Shown here piece by piece: positions 2,359 to 6,583 of a DNA stretch of 6,583 nt; position 1 is the stretch's first letter, and every line of letters starts with the position of its first letter. The notes under the pieces are model-generated. The model was not told the DNA's origin, searched no databases, and saw only the letters and a program-made list of their open reading frames with translations. The DNA comes from Synergistaceae bacterium (GTDB lineage Bacteria > Synergistota > Synergistia > Synergistales > Aminobacteriaceae), in contig JAFVEW010000041.1 of NCBI GenBank assembly GCA_017475805.1, forward strand, positions 1 to 6,583. The letters run 5' to 3'. A program made the position numbers and the translations under genes.

Positions 2359-3375
2359 ATGGAAGATGCTTTAGAAATTCTTGAAGAATTTGAAACAGAA
2401 ACAGAAAACGAACTTGAAAATCTTATCGGAGAAAGTGAAGTTGAAGTTGACAACGACGCCGAAAAAATAATTGAAATCACAGCCGAAGAAAATTCAGAGC
2501 GTCTCGATACATTTTTAGCAGAAAAATTAGATTTTTCACGGTCTCGTGTTGCTAACATGATTAGAAATAAATTAATAACAAACGAGGCCGTAAGAAATAA
2601 TCAAGAACGATACTTGAAACCGTCTAGGAAAGTTCAAACAGGCGATAAATTTTTCGTGAAAATTTTTGCTTCTAACAACGAAAATTTTTTGAGAGCCGAG
2701 CCTGTCGATTTTGAAGTCGTTTATGAAGACTCTGATATTTTAGTCATTAATAAACCCTCAGGAGTCGTTGTTCACCCTTCGCCCGGCAACTGGCGAAACA
2801 CTCTTGTGAACGGCCTTGTCTATCGTTATCCTGAAATGAAAAAGTTAATGGCTTGGTTAAGACCCGGCATAGTTCACAGATTAGATTCTGGAACTTCGGG
2901 CTTAATGGTCGTAGCGAGAACAGAAGGCTCTACAAGGGAGCTTCAACGAATGTTCAAAGATAGAGAGATCGATAAAAATTACATTGCGCTTGCTCACGGC
3001 AGGCCAAAGAGACCCGAAGGCACGATTTCCGGCCCGATTGATAGAGACCCCGACAATTTTTTGAAGATGGCAATAATTGCGGGCGGCAAACCTTCATTGA
3101 CGGGCTATAAAGTTTTATGGACTCGAAATAATATTTCTATGGTGAAGTTCAAACTTTATACGGGACGAACGCATCAAATTCGCGTGCATTTTTCCGCGCT
3201 GGGCTGTCCTTTAGTCGGCGATTGCACTTATGGAGCTCCTGAAAATGAGTCAGAGCTTGGCCGCGTATATTTACATTCATGGCGTTTAAGTTTCAAGCAC
3301 CCTGTAACAGGCGAACAAATGAATTTCAAAAAAAATATAACGCCGGATTTTTTAGATTATATTAAGAATCTTTGA
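2359..3375 (+). CDS. rluD: RluA/RluD-family 23S rRNA pseudouridine synthase
   Basis: The enzyme isomerises uridine to pseudouridine in RNA; RluD acts on helix 69 of 23S rRNA. Residues 48 to about 100 form an S4 RNA-binding domain (ERLDTFLAEKL, then RSRVANMIRNKLI). The catalytic domain follows, with YEDSDILVINKPSGVVVHP, the signature HRLDSGTSGLMVV at 173-185 with catalytic Asp176, and GRTHQIRVHFSALG near the end. Its 338 residues compare with about 326 in E. coli RluD; the excess is a strongly acidic N-terminal extension of about 45 residues. The ATG is preceded by AGGAAG with about ten bases spacing. S4-containing RluC and RluD types are hard to separate by eye, so the specific rRNA target is inferred. 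It lies 21 bases behind the ATPase gene and no promoter is evident between them. Confidence 0.9.
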   Translation: MEDALEILEEFETETENELENLIGESEVEVDNDAEKIIEITAEENSERLDTFLAEKLDFSRSRVANMIRNKLITNEAVRNNQERYLKPSRKVQTGDKFFVKIFASNNENFLRAEPVDFEVVYEDSDILVINKPSGVVVHPSPGNWRNTLVNGLVYRYPEMKKLMAWLRPGIVHRLDSGTSGLMVVARTEGSTRELQRMFKDREIDKNYIALAHGRPKRPEGTISGPIDRDPDNFLKMAIIAGGKPSLTGYKVLWTRNNISMVKFKLYTGRTHQIRVHFSALGCPLVGDCTYGAPENESELGRVYLHSWRLSFKHPVTGEQMNFKKNITPDFLDYIKNL

Positions 3376-3403
3376 ATTTAATTCCCTTCTTTCGTGATAG
3401 AAT
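3372..3403 (+). promoter_or_regulatory. Extended -10 promoter of the small-peptide gene
   Basis: TGATAGAAT (3395-3403) is an extended -10 element with hexamer TAGAAT at 3398-3403. A TTGAAT at 3372-3377 overlaps the rluD stop codon but stands 20 bases away, and TTTAAT at 3377-3382 stands 15 bases away, so the -35 is weak. The predicted start near 3409-3410 coincides with the base of a stable hairpin, which would put the hairpin at the very 5' end of the RNA. Confidence 0.55.
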
Positions 3404-3408
3404 CTACT

Positions 3409-3428
3409 TGCCTGTTACTCAGCAGGTA
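3409..3428 (+). other. 5'-terminal hairpin of the small-peptide mRNA
   Basis: The bases 3409-3414 pair with 3423-3428 (six pairs, one G-U), leaving an 8-nt loop TTACTCAG, or a 4-nt loop if two further weak pairs form. It would sit at the predicted RNA 5' end, a position where a hairpin commonly shields mRNA from degradation. The loop bases TTACTCA (3415-3421) are a perfect complement of TGAGTAA (3631-3637) in the terminator loop of the neighbouring small RNA, which suggests a loop-loop contact. Confidence 0.55.
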
Positions 3429-3448
3429 CTCTCTCAGGGAGGGAGGGG
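3429..3448 (+). promoter_or_regulatory. Purine-rich Shine-Dalgarno in a self-sequestering hairpin
   Basis: AGGGAGGGAGGGG at 3436-3448 contains several overlapping Shine-Dalgarno matches and ends six bases before the ATG at 3455, an optimal distance. Just upstream, CTCTCTC (3429-3435) can pair with GAGGGAG (3439-3445) across a 3-nt loop, giving seven pairs with two G-U. This would partly hide the ribosome binding site in the folded mRNA, a known device in type I toxin mRNAs. The fold was worked out by hand. Confidence 0.6.
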
Positions 3449-3454
3449 TTGTGT

Positions 3455-3535
3455 ATGAAATACTTCAAGGTTTTTAGCCTAAGTTTTTGGCTGGGGCGTT
3501 GGCATGTAAAAGTGTCAATTACTTGCTTAAAATAA
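3455..3535 (+). CDS. 26-residue cationic aromatic peptide, candidate type I toxin
   Basis: The ORF runs from ATG to TAA behind a very strong Shine-Dalgarno, and has its own promoter and terminator. The peptide starts MKYFKVFSLSFW and ends HVKVSITCLK. It holds four Lys, one Arg, one His, no acidic residue, and six aromatics (Y3, F4, F7, F11, W12, W16). A hydrophobic patch spans V6-L13; residues 16-24 alternate polar and nonpolar, so a membrane-active amphipathic strand or helix is plausible. In size, charge and style it resembles short type I toxins such as AapA of Helicobacter pylori, but I cannot show homology. The region around its start codon is complementary to the small RNA encoded just downstream. 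Alternatives are a regulatory leader peptide, or a chance ORF inside a structured RNA. Confidence 0.6.
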   Translation: MKYFKVFSLSFWLGRWHVKVSITCLK

Positions 3536-3543
3536 AGGTTTAT

Positions 3544-3567
3544 GGAGGGCTTGGTCCCTCTTCTTTT
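3544..3567 (+). terminator. Terminator of the small-peptide mRNA
   Basis: GAGGG (3545-3549) pairs with CCCTC (3556-3560) across a 6-nt loop, with an extra G-U pair below (3544 with 3561), and TTCTTTT follows to 3567. It starts nine bases after the TAA of the small ORF and would give an mRNA of about 158 nt. The stem is short, so termination may be incomplete. The loop and 3' arm overlap the -35 region of the next promoter. Confidence 0.65.
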
Positions 3568-3577
3568 ATGCTATAAT
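3551..3577 (+). promoter_or_regulatory. Promoter of the antisense small RNA
   Basis: TGCTATAAT at 3569-3577 is a consensus extended -10 element with a perfect TATAAT (3572-3577). TTGGTC at 3551-3556 is a partial -35 with a short 15-base spacer. The predicted start, near 3584, falls two bases before the segment complementary to the small-peptide mRNA. By -10 quality it is stronger than the promoter of the peptide gene, as expected for an antitoxin RNA. It may also feed dnaN by read-through. Confidence 0.7.
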
Positions 3578-3583
3578 ATAACC

Positions 3584-3653
3584 AATTGAAGTATTTGAAA
3601 ATCATACGCAATCGAAAACACTTCCGACCTTGAGTAAGTCGGGAGCTTTTTTT
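3584..3653 (+). ncRNA. Candidate antisense small RNA, about 70 nt, targeting the peptide mRNA
   Basis: The limits come from the TATAAT promoter and the terminator, giving a 5' single-stranded region of about 37 nt and a 3' terminator hairpin. Bases 3586-3596 (TTGAAGTATTT) perfectly complement codons 2-5 of the small ORF (3458-3468). Bases 3603-3613 (CATACGCAATC) complement the start codon, spacer and Shine-Dalgarno edge (3447-3457) with two G-U pairs. The six bases between them bulge. The terminator loop (TGAGTAA, 3631-3637) complements the apical loop of the mRNA 5' hairpin. All contacts are collinear and antiparallel. It would block ribosome entry and perhaps invite RNase III. Since both RNAs are on one strand, the same pairing could also form within a read-through transcript. 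Confidence 0.6.
3621..3653 (+). terminator. Strong terminator of the small RNA, 23 bases before dnaN
   Basis: CTTCCGAC (3621-3628) pairs with GTCGGGAG (3638-3645), eight pairs with one G-U, around a 9-nt loop CTTGAGTAA. The stem is followed by C and seven T residues (3647-3653). It is a near-ideal intrinsic terminator, yet dnaN starts at 3677, and I see no complete promoter in the 23 bases between. It therefore acts either as the end of a free small RNA or as an attenuator for dnaN. Confidence 0.85.
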
Positions 3654-3676
3654 AACGAAAGGAATGAAAATTTTTA

Positions 3677-4996
3677 ATGAAACTTGAATTACAGCGTCAA
3701 GACTTTCTAAAGGCTTGGCAGATTGCTGAAAAGTTTATCGACGCTAAATCCGCAAAAGAATCTATATCAGGAATTTTTGTCAGAGCTTTTGAAGACGGCA
3801 GAGTAACTCTTGAAGCTACTGACTTAAAAACTTCCGTGAGATGCGAAGCTGAAGGCGTCAACGTCATTGAGCCTGGCGTCGCTGTTGTTCCTGCTATGAT
3901 TTTAGGTAGCATGATAAAAAAATCAGCGTCAGATGATTTAATGTTAGAGGTAAATTCCGATAGAGGTCTTCTCAGCGCAGGCAAAAGTAAAACAAGATTC
4001 GCTATTATTTCTGCTGAAACATTCCCGAAAATTCCTGAAAGCTCCGGCGCAGAAAAAATTTTTGATTTTCAGGGCAGCGATTTTGCTAAAATGATAGCTG
4101 AAGGCGGCTCAGCTTCTTCAATGCCTCAAGACTTTCCTAAATATATTGGAACGTGTCTTTTAAGAGCAAAAGCCGGAAAAGACGATGAAAAAGGCAAAAT
4201 TACAATCGTCTCGACAGACGGAAAGAGACTCTCGCGTGCAGAGTCACCGTGCGAAAGTATTTCAAAAGAAACGGATTTATTATTGCCCGCTCAGGCTTTC
4301 AAAGATTTAGGCAAGACCTTAGCTTCAAATTATCCCGATAAAAACTTAAACATTTTAGCTGACGACTCAACTATCTGGTTTAGTCTTGAAGGCGTCGAAT
4401 TTTCAATAAGACTTATAGACGCAACATTCCCGATTTACGAAAGAATCTTAAATGACATCGTAGAAACTTCTCTGAAGATAAAAACAGAAGATTTGATTCC
4501 TGTACTTGATAGAATTGACATTATAGCTCGAACAATACCTGCTCATATTATGGCGATGATCTTAAACCCGAACGGCGAATTAAGAATCACGGCACGCGCT
4601 CCTGAACGCGGCACAGCAAGTGAGAGCATGAACACAAACATCGAAGGGAAATATTTGCAAGTCGGCTTTAACGTCGGTTATTTCCTTGACGGTTTGAAAA
4701 TTCTTGGCAACGGCGAAGTTAAAATAGAATTCAGCGGCGACGAGAGTCAGACTCGAATGAAACGCATTAACAGCGATGGCAGCGACAACAATGATTTTCT
4801 TTATATGCTCATGCCCGCAAGATTAAGCCAGCAAGATAGAATCGCTGAACAAGAAATGGGCGAATTTGAAAACGAGAACGAAAACGATAATAACGATAGC
4901 GTCGACGCTACTGATACTGAAGTTTATAACGCAGCTGAAAATAAAGACGCTGAAGAAAATAATCAGGAATTTCAAGATAATCAAGAAAATCAATAG
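3677..4996 (+). CDS. dnaN: DNA polymerase III beta subunit (sliding clamp) with an acidic C-terminal tail
   Basis: The protein forms the ring-shaped clamp that tethers DNA polymerase III and recruits other repair and replication proteins. The start (MKLELQRQDFLKAWQIAEKFI), LEATDLKTSVRC near residue 50, and the terminal YMLMPARL (376-383) are clamp hallmarks. The last five, MPARL at 379-383, correspond to the MPMRL end of E. coli DnaN that lines the partner-binding cleft. The core thus ends at residue 383, a normal length, and a 56-residue tail rich in Glu, Asp, Asn and Gln follows. The Shine-Dalgarno AAAGGA (3658-3663) lies about 13 bases from the ATG, longer than usual. recF overlaps its stop codon. 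dnaA is absent upstream, so this is not the classical dnaA-dnaN-recF order. Transcription probably depends on read-through from the small RNA region. Confidence 0.95.
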   Translation: MKLELQRQDFLKAWQIAEKFIDAKSAKESISGIFVRAFEDGRVTLEATDLKTSVRCEAEGVNVIEPGVAVVPAMILGSMIKKSASDDLMLEVNSDRGLLSAGKSKTRFAIISAETFPKIPESSGAEKIFDFQGSDFAKMIAEGGSASSMPQDFPKYIGTCLLRAKAGKDDEKGKITIVSTDGKRLSRAESPCESISKETDLLLPAQAFKDLGKTLASNYPDKNLNILADDSTIWFSLEGVEFSIRLIDATFPIYERILNDIVETSLKIKTEDLIPVLDRIDIIARTIPAHIMAMILNPNGELRITARAPERGTASESMNTNIEGKYLQVGFNVGYFLDGLKILGNGEVKIEFSGDESQTRMKRINSDGSDNNDFLYMLMPARLSQQDRIAEQEMGEFENENENDNNDSVDATDTEVYNAAENKDAEENNQEFQDNQENQ

Positions 4997-6033
4997 TGAG
5001 AATTAATTACAGCGTCATCAAAAATTTCAGAAATTTTGTCGGCCCGGAACTCAAATTTGAATGGAGTCCGGGCATTAATTTGATACTTGGCGCGAACGGC
5101 TCAGGGAAAACAAACCTGCTTGAATCTCTTAGTGTCCTTTGCGGTTGGGGAGGTTTTACGAGGACTCAAAATTTAGTCTCGTGGTCAAATCTTGATTCTC
5201 GTGCTTTTGCATTTGCTGAAATGTCAGGCGAAGAAAAATTTAATGTCTCGGCGTCAATTTCGTCGCGCGTTGTCTTAAAAATTAATGACAAAACTATTTC
5301 TTTTACTGATTTAAGGCTTGCAGTGCCTTCAATAATATTTTTAACGGGCGGTGTAAATTTAATCGACGGTGCTCCTGCTGCCCGGCGTTTGTTTATGGAT
5401 AGACTTTGCTCGCTGCTTTTTGCTCCGTACGCGAAAAAACTTTCTGATTTCAAATACGTAATGCGTTCACGAACGGCTTTATTACGTCAGGAAAAATCGC
5501 CGGAAGCTACGACAAAACTTTTTTGTGAATTAGGCGGCTGGATTATGGACAGGCGGCGCGAAGTAACGAGCCTTTTGAAGACCGTGATGCTTCAAAATAA
5601 TTTTAATTTAGAATTTCTACCGTCTATTAATATCAGCAGCGAAAGATTTTTGAAAAATACTCTCAAAGATAAAAAATATCAAGCTCGCGAACGTGGAGCC
5701 ATGCGGCCTTTAATAGGGCCTAATTATGAAGAATTAGCTATAACCTTGCACGACAATAATAGACCTGCTTCAGAGGCTTTAAGTCGCGGACAAAAAAGAA
5801 GATTGATTCTTAATTTGATAATTAACTCAGGAAAATTAATTAAGCTGAGATTAAAAAGGAATCCGATTTTATTATTTGATGACTTAACCGCCGAATTAGA
5901 CTCAGAAGGCCGTGAATGGACTTGTCAAAAAATACTCGAAACAGGTTGGCAAGCCTTCATAACAGCCCCTGAAAATCCCTTTGAAAAAACAGTGAGGAAT
6001 GAGGAGTTAGGAATTAGGAATTATTTTCTTTAG
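4996..6033 (+). CDS. recF: RecF, SMC-like ATPase of recombinational repair
   Basis: RecF binds ATP and DNA and, with RecO and RecR, helps load RecA at gaps. The N-terminus (NYSVIKNFRNF) fits the family. Walker A GANGSGKT lies at 32-39, the ABC-type signature LSRGQKR at 262-268, Walker B ILLFDD at 291-296, and the D-loop AELD at 299-302. The start is GTG, sharing its G with the dnaN stop (TAGTG), so translation is probably coupled to dnaN; no good Shine-Dalgarno is visible. At 345 residues it is slightly shorter than the usual 360-370. The last 13 residues (333-345, VRNEELGIRNYFL) are encoded by the G/A-rich repeat rather than by family-like sequence, so the natural C-terminus seems to have been replaced. 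Confidence 0.93.
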   Translation: MRINYSVIKNFRNFVGPELKFEWSPGINLILGANGSGKTNLLESLSVLCGWGGFTRTQNLVSWSNLDSRAFAFAEMSGEEKFNVSASISSRVVLKINDKTISFTDLRLAVPSIIFLTGGVNLIDGAPAARRLFMDRLCSLLFAPYAKKLSDFKYVMRSRTALLRQEKSPEATTKLFCELGGWIMDRRREVTSLLKTVMLQNNFNLEFLPSINISSERFLKNTLKDKKYQARERGAMRPLIGPNYEELAITLHDNNRPASEALSRGQKRRLILNLIINSGKLIKLRLKRNPILLFDDLTAELDSEGREWTCQKILETGWQAFITAPENPFEKTVRNEELGIRNYFL

Positions 6034-6067
6034 TGTTTTTTTGTCTTTTTACTCCTCACTCCTCATT
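5984..6067 (-). terminator. Inverted repeat between convergent genes, possible terminator for the kinase
   Basis: The arms 5991-6007 and 6051-6067 can form 16 of 17 pairs, one of them G-U, around a 43-base centre. On the minus strand the second arm is followed by G and six U residues (complement of 5984-5989). This fits a terminator for the glycerate kinase mRNA, although the loop is long. On the plus strand no comparable T-run follows the stem, so recF termination there would be weak. Confidence 0.45.
5991..6023 (+). repeat. G/A-rich dispersed repeat, copy 2, inside the recF 3' end
   Basis: The segment opens with AGTGAGGAATGAGGAGT and continues with TAGGAATTAGGAATTA. It shares units and orientation with 93-125. 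It is read in the recF frame as VRNEELGIRN, so it is part of the coding sequence. Its first 17 bases are the left arm of an inverted repeat with 6051-6067. Confidence 0.75.
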
Positions 6068-6082
6068 GCTAATTTCTCATTG
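6051..6082 (-). repeat. G/A-rich dispersed repeat, copy 3, inverted
   Basis: Read on the minus strand, the segment is made of GCAATGAGAAATTAGC followed by AATGAGGAGTGAGGAGT, the same units as the two direct copies. The TGA stop codon of the glycerate kinase (6079-6077) falls inside it. Copies 2 and 3 face each other across a 43-base T-rich centre. Confidence 0.75.
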
Positions 6083-6583
6083 CTTTATTAACGCTAAAGC
6101 AACATCATTGACATTCGTACCCGTCGGTCCTGTCATTAAAAGAGCGTCGGCGGCTTTCAAAGCGTTGTAAGCGTCATTTTCTTTCAAAACGTCAGAGATA
6201 CTAATTTTCTTTTCCTTCAAAATTTCTTCAGTTTTTCCGTCAACGATCCCTCCGGCGGCGTCTGTAGGGCCGTCTGTTCCGTCTGAACCTAACGAGGCTA
6301 TCACGACGTTATCAAGTCCTGCTATGCCTGTCGCTGCAGATAAAGCAAATTCTTGATTTCGTCCGCCCATTCCGTGTCCTGTTAAATGAACGACTGTTTC
6401 TCCGCCTGCAATTAAAGCGCAAGGAGCTTTAACGGGTCTTCCCGAAGTCAAAACTTCACGCGCTACTGATGCCATAAACGAGCCGCCTTCACGGGCTTCA
6501 CAGGTCATTGTTGTAGTCAAGACGAGAGGGTTATAGCCTTTTGATTTAGCTATTTCGCAAGCAGCTTCACACAAAGCAGTAAC
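6077..6583 (-). CDS. Glycerate 2-kinase, MOFRL family (C-terminal part, 5' end outside the window)
   Basis: The enzyme phosphorylates D-glycerate to 2-phosphoglycerate with ATP, feeding serine or sugar-acid breakdown into lower glycolysis. The frame is open to the right edge, so 168 C-terminal residues of a protein normally over 400 long are present. The MOFRL domain is clear: ALIAGGETVV, then GMGGRNQEFALSAA, then SLGSDGTDGPTDAAGG, and TGPTGTNVNDVALALI next to the C-terminus. Related proteins are often labelled hydroxypyruvate reductase (TtuD) or GckA; kinase activity is the better supported role for the family. It converges on recF, with its stop codon inside the inverted G/A-rich repeat, and has no evident functional link to the replication genes. 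Confidence 0.88.
   Translation of the reverse strand, partial: VTALCEAACEIAKSKGYNPLVLTTTMTCEAREGGSFMASVAREVLTSGRPVKAPCALIAGGETVVHLTGHGMGGRNQEFALSAATGIAGLDNVVIASLGSDGTDGPTDAAGGIVDGKTEEILKEKKISISDVLKENDAYNALKAADALLMTGPTGTNVNDVALALIKQ

Follow-up and report, generated by a model that had tools for sequence, protein, structure and literature searches.

A compact locus, at positions 3410-3653, lies in a 6,583-nucleotide (nt) stretch of DNA from a gut Synergistaceae bacterium (contig JAFVEW010000041.1; the whole stretch is here termed the window). It occupies the ~300-nt gap ahead of dnaN and is flanked by that gene and by an rluD-like gene. The locus has two putative genes in tandem, both on the plus strand: one for a messenger with a short toxin-like open reading frame (ORF), the other for a small RNA (sRNA) complementary to the start region of the first. 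The original prediction, made from the sequence of the window, had described two promoters, two terminators and a 26-codon ORF with an exceptional Shine-Dalgarno (SD) sequence, and all of these are present as described. It had interpreted them as a type I toxin-antitoxin pair. Comparison with relatives now makes it probable that the locus belongs to a new family of type I toxin-antitoxin systems with a same-strand, two-contact architecture.

Elements of the locus and its relatives

The toxin gene has an extended -10 box, TGaTAGAAT, at 3395-3403, in which T, G, T, A, A and T show little or no variation among the 12 aligned leaders. The predicted mRNA (3410-3567) is set to start 7 nt past this box and to end at its own terminator. 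Its 5′-terminal hairpin (3410-3427) has a stem of five consensus pairs, three of which are changed on both sides in relatives, and contains the sequence TTACTCA (3415-3421), which forms seven Watson-Crick pairs with 3631-3637 in the sRNA. A second predicted hairpin (3429-3441) covers part of the purine-rich SD sequence, GGGAGGGAGGGG, at 3437-3448. The ORF itself (3455-3535) encodes the 26-residue peptide MKYFKVFSLSFWLGRWHVKVSITCLK; the ORF list gives the same frame starting from an upstream TTG at 3449. The peptide has a net charge of +5 and, exactly as first noted, six aromatic and no acidic residues. The region at -8 to +18 of the start codon (3447-3472) is computed to pair with the sRNA body. 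A hairpin followed by a T-run (3544-3567) constitutes the toxin mRNA terminator, and hairpins are similarly placed in relatives.

The sRNA gene begins with its own extended -10 box, TGcTATAAT (3569-3577), and the predicted sRNA of ~70 nt (3584-3653) is likewise set to start 7 nt past it. The body of the sRNA (3586-3613) is complementary to the toxin start region in two segments, 3586-3596 and 3603-3613. The terminator (3621-3653) has an 8-bp stem, a 9-nt loop and a T-run, and within its loop is the sequence TGAGTAA (3631-3637), the partner of the mRNA hairpin sequence. The promoter, as TGnTATAnT, and the terminator are conserved across 14 aligned sRNAs. A simple scanner, which needs a -35 box for promoters and limits terminator loops to 8 nt, found the first terminator on the plus strand and listed neither the two promoters nor the second terminator, with its loop of 9; the case for these three elements is made by their conservation in relatives.

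The first step to relatives was a DNA search of 14 related genomes, which yielded three loci with five toxin copies. Four of these keep the peptide despite codon changes, and one has an in-frame stop. A peptide profile, built from five and then from nine peptides, was run over 185 Synergistota genomes. With nine peptides it gave ten members at E ≤ 5e-7 and an eleventh, L116, at E 0.08, which was accepted because leader and sRNA are present. The low-scoring matches inspected were L102-L108, L110 and L115-L117, with L109 and L111 left out; among them only L116 was judged real, and L115 is the same as member 134. Among the weak matches of the earlier, five-peptide profile, L079-L081 and L083 were also inspected.

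Two covariance models were run over the same 185 genomes, R1 for the toxin leader (12 members) and R2 for the sRNA (14 sequences). R1 has 17 matches at E ≤ 0.05 in seven genomes, and 16 of them carry the family peptide and an adjoining R2 match, 11 being in the training set and five new. The remaining match, on contig C49 of genome G087, was rejected; it is 59 nt long, with neither a peptide nor an sRNA match nearby. R2 has 27 matches in eight genomes. Four stand alone; the other 23 have an R1 toxin leader on their own strand no more than 350 nt away (13 from the training set, 10 from outside it). Filters are strict at this search size and weak members may be lost. When 21 of these genomes were searched with greater sensitivity, no further strong match appeared, peptide E values dropping off from 4.5e-6 to 0.01; the weak matches of this search (L170, L174-L178 and others without a locus) are outside the count.

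There are thus 16 further toxin genes at 14 loci in seven of the 185 genomes, with four copies each in G001 and G013, three in G008, two in G006 and one each in G002, G004 and G087. Including the window, the family comprises 17 toxin genes at 15 loci, of which 15 are intact and two (54 and 78) have an in-frame stop.

Searches elsewhere gave nothing comparable. Neither blastn with the locus nor tblastn with the peptide had a match in plasmids and phages, and a degenerate DNA pattern found none in six genomes. Among viral contigs there were one confirmed match and seven pattern matches, on seven contigs in all; the seven pattern matches were ruled out by eye, as the ~460 nt around each contain no leader and sRNA. 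Nine of the 15 intact peptides, compared with Pfam, NCBIfam, PADLOC and PHROGs, gave nothing convincing, and the scattered matches, of one member each and once of two of the nine (best E 0.0036, to Pfam CoxIIa), were judged to be chance. Profile A3, of nine peptides, found no relative among Protein Data Bank sequences, with one chance match at E 1.7. In Rfam there was no match near the gathering score, either for the whole window or for 3370-3680. Scanning the whole window gave just two Rfam matches (E 0.39 and 0.97), both due to chance similarity with a simple purine-rich intergenic repeat, such as gaggagttaggaattaggaatt, which is present in inverted and direct copies at 5977-6094 and 95-130. 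Similar purine-rich repeats also flank sRNAs at L148, L155 and L158.

At the amino acid level, alignment A6 gives the consensus MKxxxxxFxLxFWLGRWHxxxxIxRxx. The 15 intact peptides are 26-29 residues long, with a net charge of +3 to +9, a hydrophobic fraction of 0.46-0.62, three to seven aromatic residues and zero to two acidic residues; all have the small (<60 residues), basic and hydrophobic character of type I toxins. The in-frame ratio of nonsynonymous to synonymous differences (pN/pS) is 0.47 for the eight members of the FWLG type and 0.55 for all 15, compared with 0.95-1.28 in shifted frames, and is 0.24 between the window and its nearest relative, the third copy at L053. The ORF therefore evolves as a coding sequence, and its conservation, on which the original prediction had been made to depend, is borne out by its retention as a peptide in relatives. 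Since the first codons also bear the RNA pairing, part of the constraint on the early codons may lie on the RNA.

Pairing between sRNAs and toxin leaders

On recomputation, the two pairings originally proposed at the window locus hold: 3447-3457 with 3603-3613 forms 11 pairs, including two G-U pairs, and 3458-3468 with 3586-3596 forms 11 Watson-Crick pairs. What had been missed is a second contact, the 7-nt loop-loop match of 3415-3421 with 3631-3637. The duplex of the sRNA body with the start region has an energy of -27.6 kcal/mol. Not one of 10,000 dinucleotide-shuffled versions of the body attains this value, nor does any of 726 other 68-nt segments taken from the two strands of the window.

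Across the family, duplex energy and the length of the kissing run were computed for a matrix of 22 sRNAs and 17 toxins, with four orphan sRNAs and two extra predicted sRNAs upstream of L116 scored outside it; neither of the latter two has a clear partner. For 16 of the 17 toxins, a neighbour sRNA has its own toxin as the best of 17, the exception being toxin 128. The best cognate duplexes of these 16 range from -21.6 to -44.3 kcal/mol with 21-35 bp, whereas the same sRNAs with other toxins have row means of about -11 to -19 kcal/mol. Seen from the toxin, 15 of the 17 have a neighbour sRNA as the best of 22. The cognate duplexes span the start codon; their 5′ limit on the mRNA falls at -14 to -5 and their 3′ limit at +15 to +42. 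The duplex total is -552.9 kcal/mol against a permuted mean of -267.4, and was equalled in none of 100,000 partner permutations.

The kissing match, between the loop of the mRNA 5′ hairpin and the sRNA terminator loop, behaves in the same way: the runs total 103 nt, against 60.5 on permutation, which again was equalled in none of 100,000. The run measures 6-7 nt in 14 of 15 intact pairs and 5-7 nt when all 15 intact toxins are counted. It is 4 nt in both broken ones, as would be expected if the contact decays after the death of the toxin, though two cases are few. The 15 intact toxins have 12 different matched runs, three of them with a common TGATC core. Examples are TTACTCA/TGAGTAA in the window, TTTCCGA/TCGGAAA at L055, TTGGTCA/TGACCAA in the third copy at L053, TCGTCAA/TTGACGA at L127, TGGGTAA/TTACCCA at L132 and TAACCA/TGGTTA at L096. 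For the five members found only by the models, and therefore outside R1/R2 training, one of 120 orders is as good as the true one for the duplex and four of 120 for the kiss, the true order included in both counts. The compensatory changes that were to be looked for in relatives are thus seen, with both sides of the RNA-RNA contacts changing together, and the base-pairing of antitoxin with toxin takes the form of a covarying pairing potential.

Among the 14 folds that end close to the toxin terminator, 11 have an SD sequence that is mostly paired (mean unpaired probability <0.5); this set leaves out members 78, 128 and 132, whose folds ran past the terminator, and includes 75, which stops slightly short. 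In some folds, such as those of the window, 55 and 77, the SD sequence pairs with an arm of the terminator in a 5′-to-3′ clamp, which is not claimed as a property of the family.

Interpretation, layout and genomic setting

The genes, their conservation, the coding signature and the covarying contacts are directly supported, and the type I interpretation is to this extent largely upheld; the formation of two separate RNAs, their mutual binding and the toxicity of the peptide are its inferred parts. A possible mechanism begins with the loop of the mRNA 5′ hairpin meeting the sRNA terminator loop. The sRNA body would then zip onto the mRNA over the SD sequence, the start codon and the first codons. 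With the 5′ body of the sRNA at the start region and its 3′ loop at the mRNA 5′ hairpin, the contacts are collinear as well as antiparallel, and one sRNA can therefore hold both. The resulting duplex would switch translation off and might be offered to RNase III. Since a consensus-like promoter of its own would direct its synthesis from the same strand, the sRNA would be antisense by sequence only and would act in trans. The basic, aromatic peptide of 26-29 residues may act at the membrane once the sRNA is lost. The transcript ends, like the order of these steps, are predicted.

Several observations weigh against this interpretation. Of 4,794 flanking pieces, 109 match the energy of the best neighbour sRNA at a start region; toxin 128 accounts for 39 of them (out of 170 pieces), the window for 38 (out of 766, each 45 nt long) and toxin 54 for 19 (out of 212). 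Toxin 128 forms a weak duplex (-16.6 kcal/mol) with the sRNA whose loop matches it and is ranked first by no adjoining sRNA. Four of the 22 sRNAs (54a, 128x, 128y and 132y) rank another toxin above their neighbour, and two more (c2b and 124a) rank the neighbour first without having its loop code. The window toxin pairs better with the sRNA of L078 (-30.4 kcal/mol) than with its own, and toxin 54 marginally better with sRNA 127 (-22.2) than with 54b (-21.6). On loop fit alone, toxins 54, 78, 124 and 128 do not have their cognate sRNA as best partner. Some loop codes are shared: GCTCAA occurs in three toxins, TAGTCA in two and the TGATC core in three; TGATCA is self-complementary, and the loop strings were picked by eye from predicted hairpins. 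In the pair c1/c2 taken alone, constraint looks as strong in a shifted frame as in the coding one. The genomes named were assembled from metagenomes, and transcription, binding and an effect on growth are deduced from sequence.

The equally strong flanking pieces of the window are also what could be said for chance complementarity in an unimportant intergenic stretch, and the duplex energy of the window is on its own only moderately unusual. It is the cross-species comparison that settles this point: with a conserved peptide and covarying contacts over 17 toxin genes, chance is already refuted by the partner permutations and has next to no probability. The locus might also be read as a single structured RNA, 3400-3655, that serves as a leader or attenuator of dnaN, for the stretch folded as one RNA has a z score of -5.0. 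The mRNA stretch 3400-3575 (z = -1.75) and the sRNA (z = -0.78) are not unusual when folded alone; the extra stability of the whole is due to the sRNA-mRNA pairing folded within one strand. In addition, none of the 20 ORFs scanned next to the 14 other loci is a dnaN, in 10 of 17 cases the sRNA precedes the toxin gene, and a look by eye at part of the stretches upstream of dnaN in relatives revealed no such element. As a role of the family, attenuation is refuted by the differing neighbours, and for the window it is very improbable.

Less remote, yet unlikely, is an sRNA that controls the peptide as proposed, the peptide being a small membrane regulator or a signal peptide in place of a toxin. 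Toxicity of the peptide is itself an inference, and no mobile-element gene was recognised among the 20 flanking ORFs of the 14 loci. On the other side, sRNAs without a toxin, two in-frame stops, varied neighbours and multiple copies per genome are a better fit to the gain and loss of an addictive unit, and the peptides resemble known type I toxins in length and charge, as described in part of a review. A toxin-antitoxin function remains the preferred reading, and the arrangement of the loci can be considered in its terms.

Each of the 17 toxin genes has an sRNA next to it on its own strand; the tandem layout first seen in the window is therefore correct and general. Ten of the 17 are preceded by the sRNA and seven, including that of the window, are followed by it; when the sRNA comes first, the T-run of the nearest sRNA extends into the toxin -10 box. 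Locus L053 has three toxins and four sRNAs. The presence of both orders on one strand would be explained by tandem duplication and loss. Loss of a toxin is visible as well. Loci L077 and L124 precede a T2SSE (PilT-like) gene, and in genome G005 an sRNA without toxin (L148) is followed by downstream sequence that is, compared by eye, nearly identical to that of L124; the loop of this sRNA still matches toxin 124 over 6 nt. Two loci of G008 have similar sRNA pairs and different toxins, and the loop of each toxin fits a different sRNA. Loci L128 and L132 of G008 have a common flanking stretch, AGGGGAGGCAAGGTG, of which L132 has a further copy downstream; this stretch may have aided copying of the unit. 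The orphan sRNA L142 (G005, contig C45) pairs through its body with the L055 toxin of another genome at -35.7 kcal/mol, while its terminator loop does not fit. Perhaps tandem arrays breed new insulated pairs, and the leftover sRNAs, whether orphans or the sRNA of another toxin kept beside a different one, serve as immunity to toxins that are absent or not yet present; we lean slightly towards this joint proposal.

A Pfam family could be assigned to 19 of the 20 ORFs that flank the 14 other loci and were scanned. The neighbours are mostly housekeeping genes, including those for HIT, radical SAM, M20 peptidase, MatE, MFS and AdoMet decarboxylase proteins, T2SSE, RNase E/G, ribosomal protein S9, Mur ligase and ATP synthase D. 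At L075 (1712-2020), a gene for a YafQ-type (type II) toxin directly follows a member's sRNA, on the opposite strand.

In the window itself, the locus has the rluD-like pseudouridine synthase gene (2359-3375) upstream and dnaN (3677-4996) downstream. The other genes encode a CDC48-like AAA ATPase, a RecF-like protein and a MOFRL protein. The CDC48-like gene (115-2337) has two ATPase domains and stands beside rluD and dnaN in a bacterium; the recF-like gene comes after dnaN, which has no dnaA ahead of it. The closest DnaN in the genome collection is 76% identical and belongs to a metagenome-assembled genome (MAG) of an uncultured Fretibacterium, the next-closest (66-64%) are in MAGs of goat, sheep and other rumen-type origin, and one contig is known to encode a protein that is 98% identical. 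Two relatives, L002 and L003, have a different conserved GC-rich stretch upstream of dnaN.

Comparison with known type I systems

The published systems are represented here by parts of the cited texts. According to a 2025 paper (PMC12390103), which itself contributes a cyanobacterial candidate, type I systems had been known from no phyla other than Proteobacteria, Firmicutes and Tenericutes. In the portions available of open-access full texts on type I systems in Synergistota, peptide motifs and same-strand layouts, the family was not found. The TADB 3.0 finder demands opposite strands for type I loci (PMC10767807), so that loci such as these, with the sRNA on the same strand throughout, are passed over; the demand is treated here as a rule of the finder and not of the mechanism. 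A same-strand layout may have a precedent, as one clause of a review mentions parallel orientation. With 17 natural toxin genes and their sRNAs, up to four per genome, the family is material for the study of how RNA pairs keep their specificity after duplication, and it raises the question of which of the two contacts decides specificity.

The Escherichia coli systems zorO-orzO, tisB-istR and shoB-ohsC (PMC3919570; PMC4147584) also have an sRNA encoded as a neighbour gene, with limited pairing in trans. ZorO has 29 residues, and its homologous tandem copies have sRNAs that discriminate between targets, as is proposed here. These E. coli genes are, however, divergent and pair in a long 5′ untranslated region away from the translation start, whereas in the present family the genes are on the same strand, the pairing covers the start codon and there is an additional loop-loop contact. 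The aapA1-isoA1 system of Helicobacter (PMC8309996; PMC8167048) is similar in having a 30-residue peptide, whose C-terminal basic residues are essential, and two kissing-loop contacts. IsoA1, in contrast, is a cis-encoded antisense RNA, while the sRNA described here lies beside the toxin gene on the same strand. The peptides of the two families may bear some likeness to each other.

The proposed mechanism resembles that of par/Fst, the RNAI-RNAII pair of pAD1 (PMC7472228). There, too, kissing at the terminator loop of the sRNA is followed by the hiding of the start codon and SD sequence, the peptide is short, and the mRNA has a stem-loop at the SD sequence. The par genes are convergent, with a shared bidirectional terminator and direct repeats, as opposed to tandem genes with separate terminators, and the kissing site on the mRNA is the 3′ terminator in par and the 5′ hairpin here. 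The peptides do not display the PXXXG motif of par/Fst, 14 of the 15 intact ones having no proline and the proline of member 124 being outside such a motif; searches with the peptide family found no sequence relation to par/Fst. The family would therefore work like par/Fst and is not a member of it, since layout, terminators and peptide differ.

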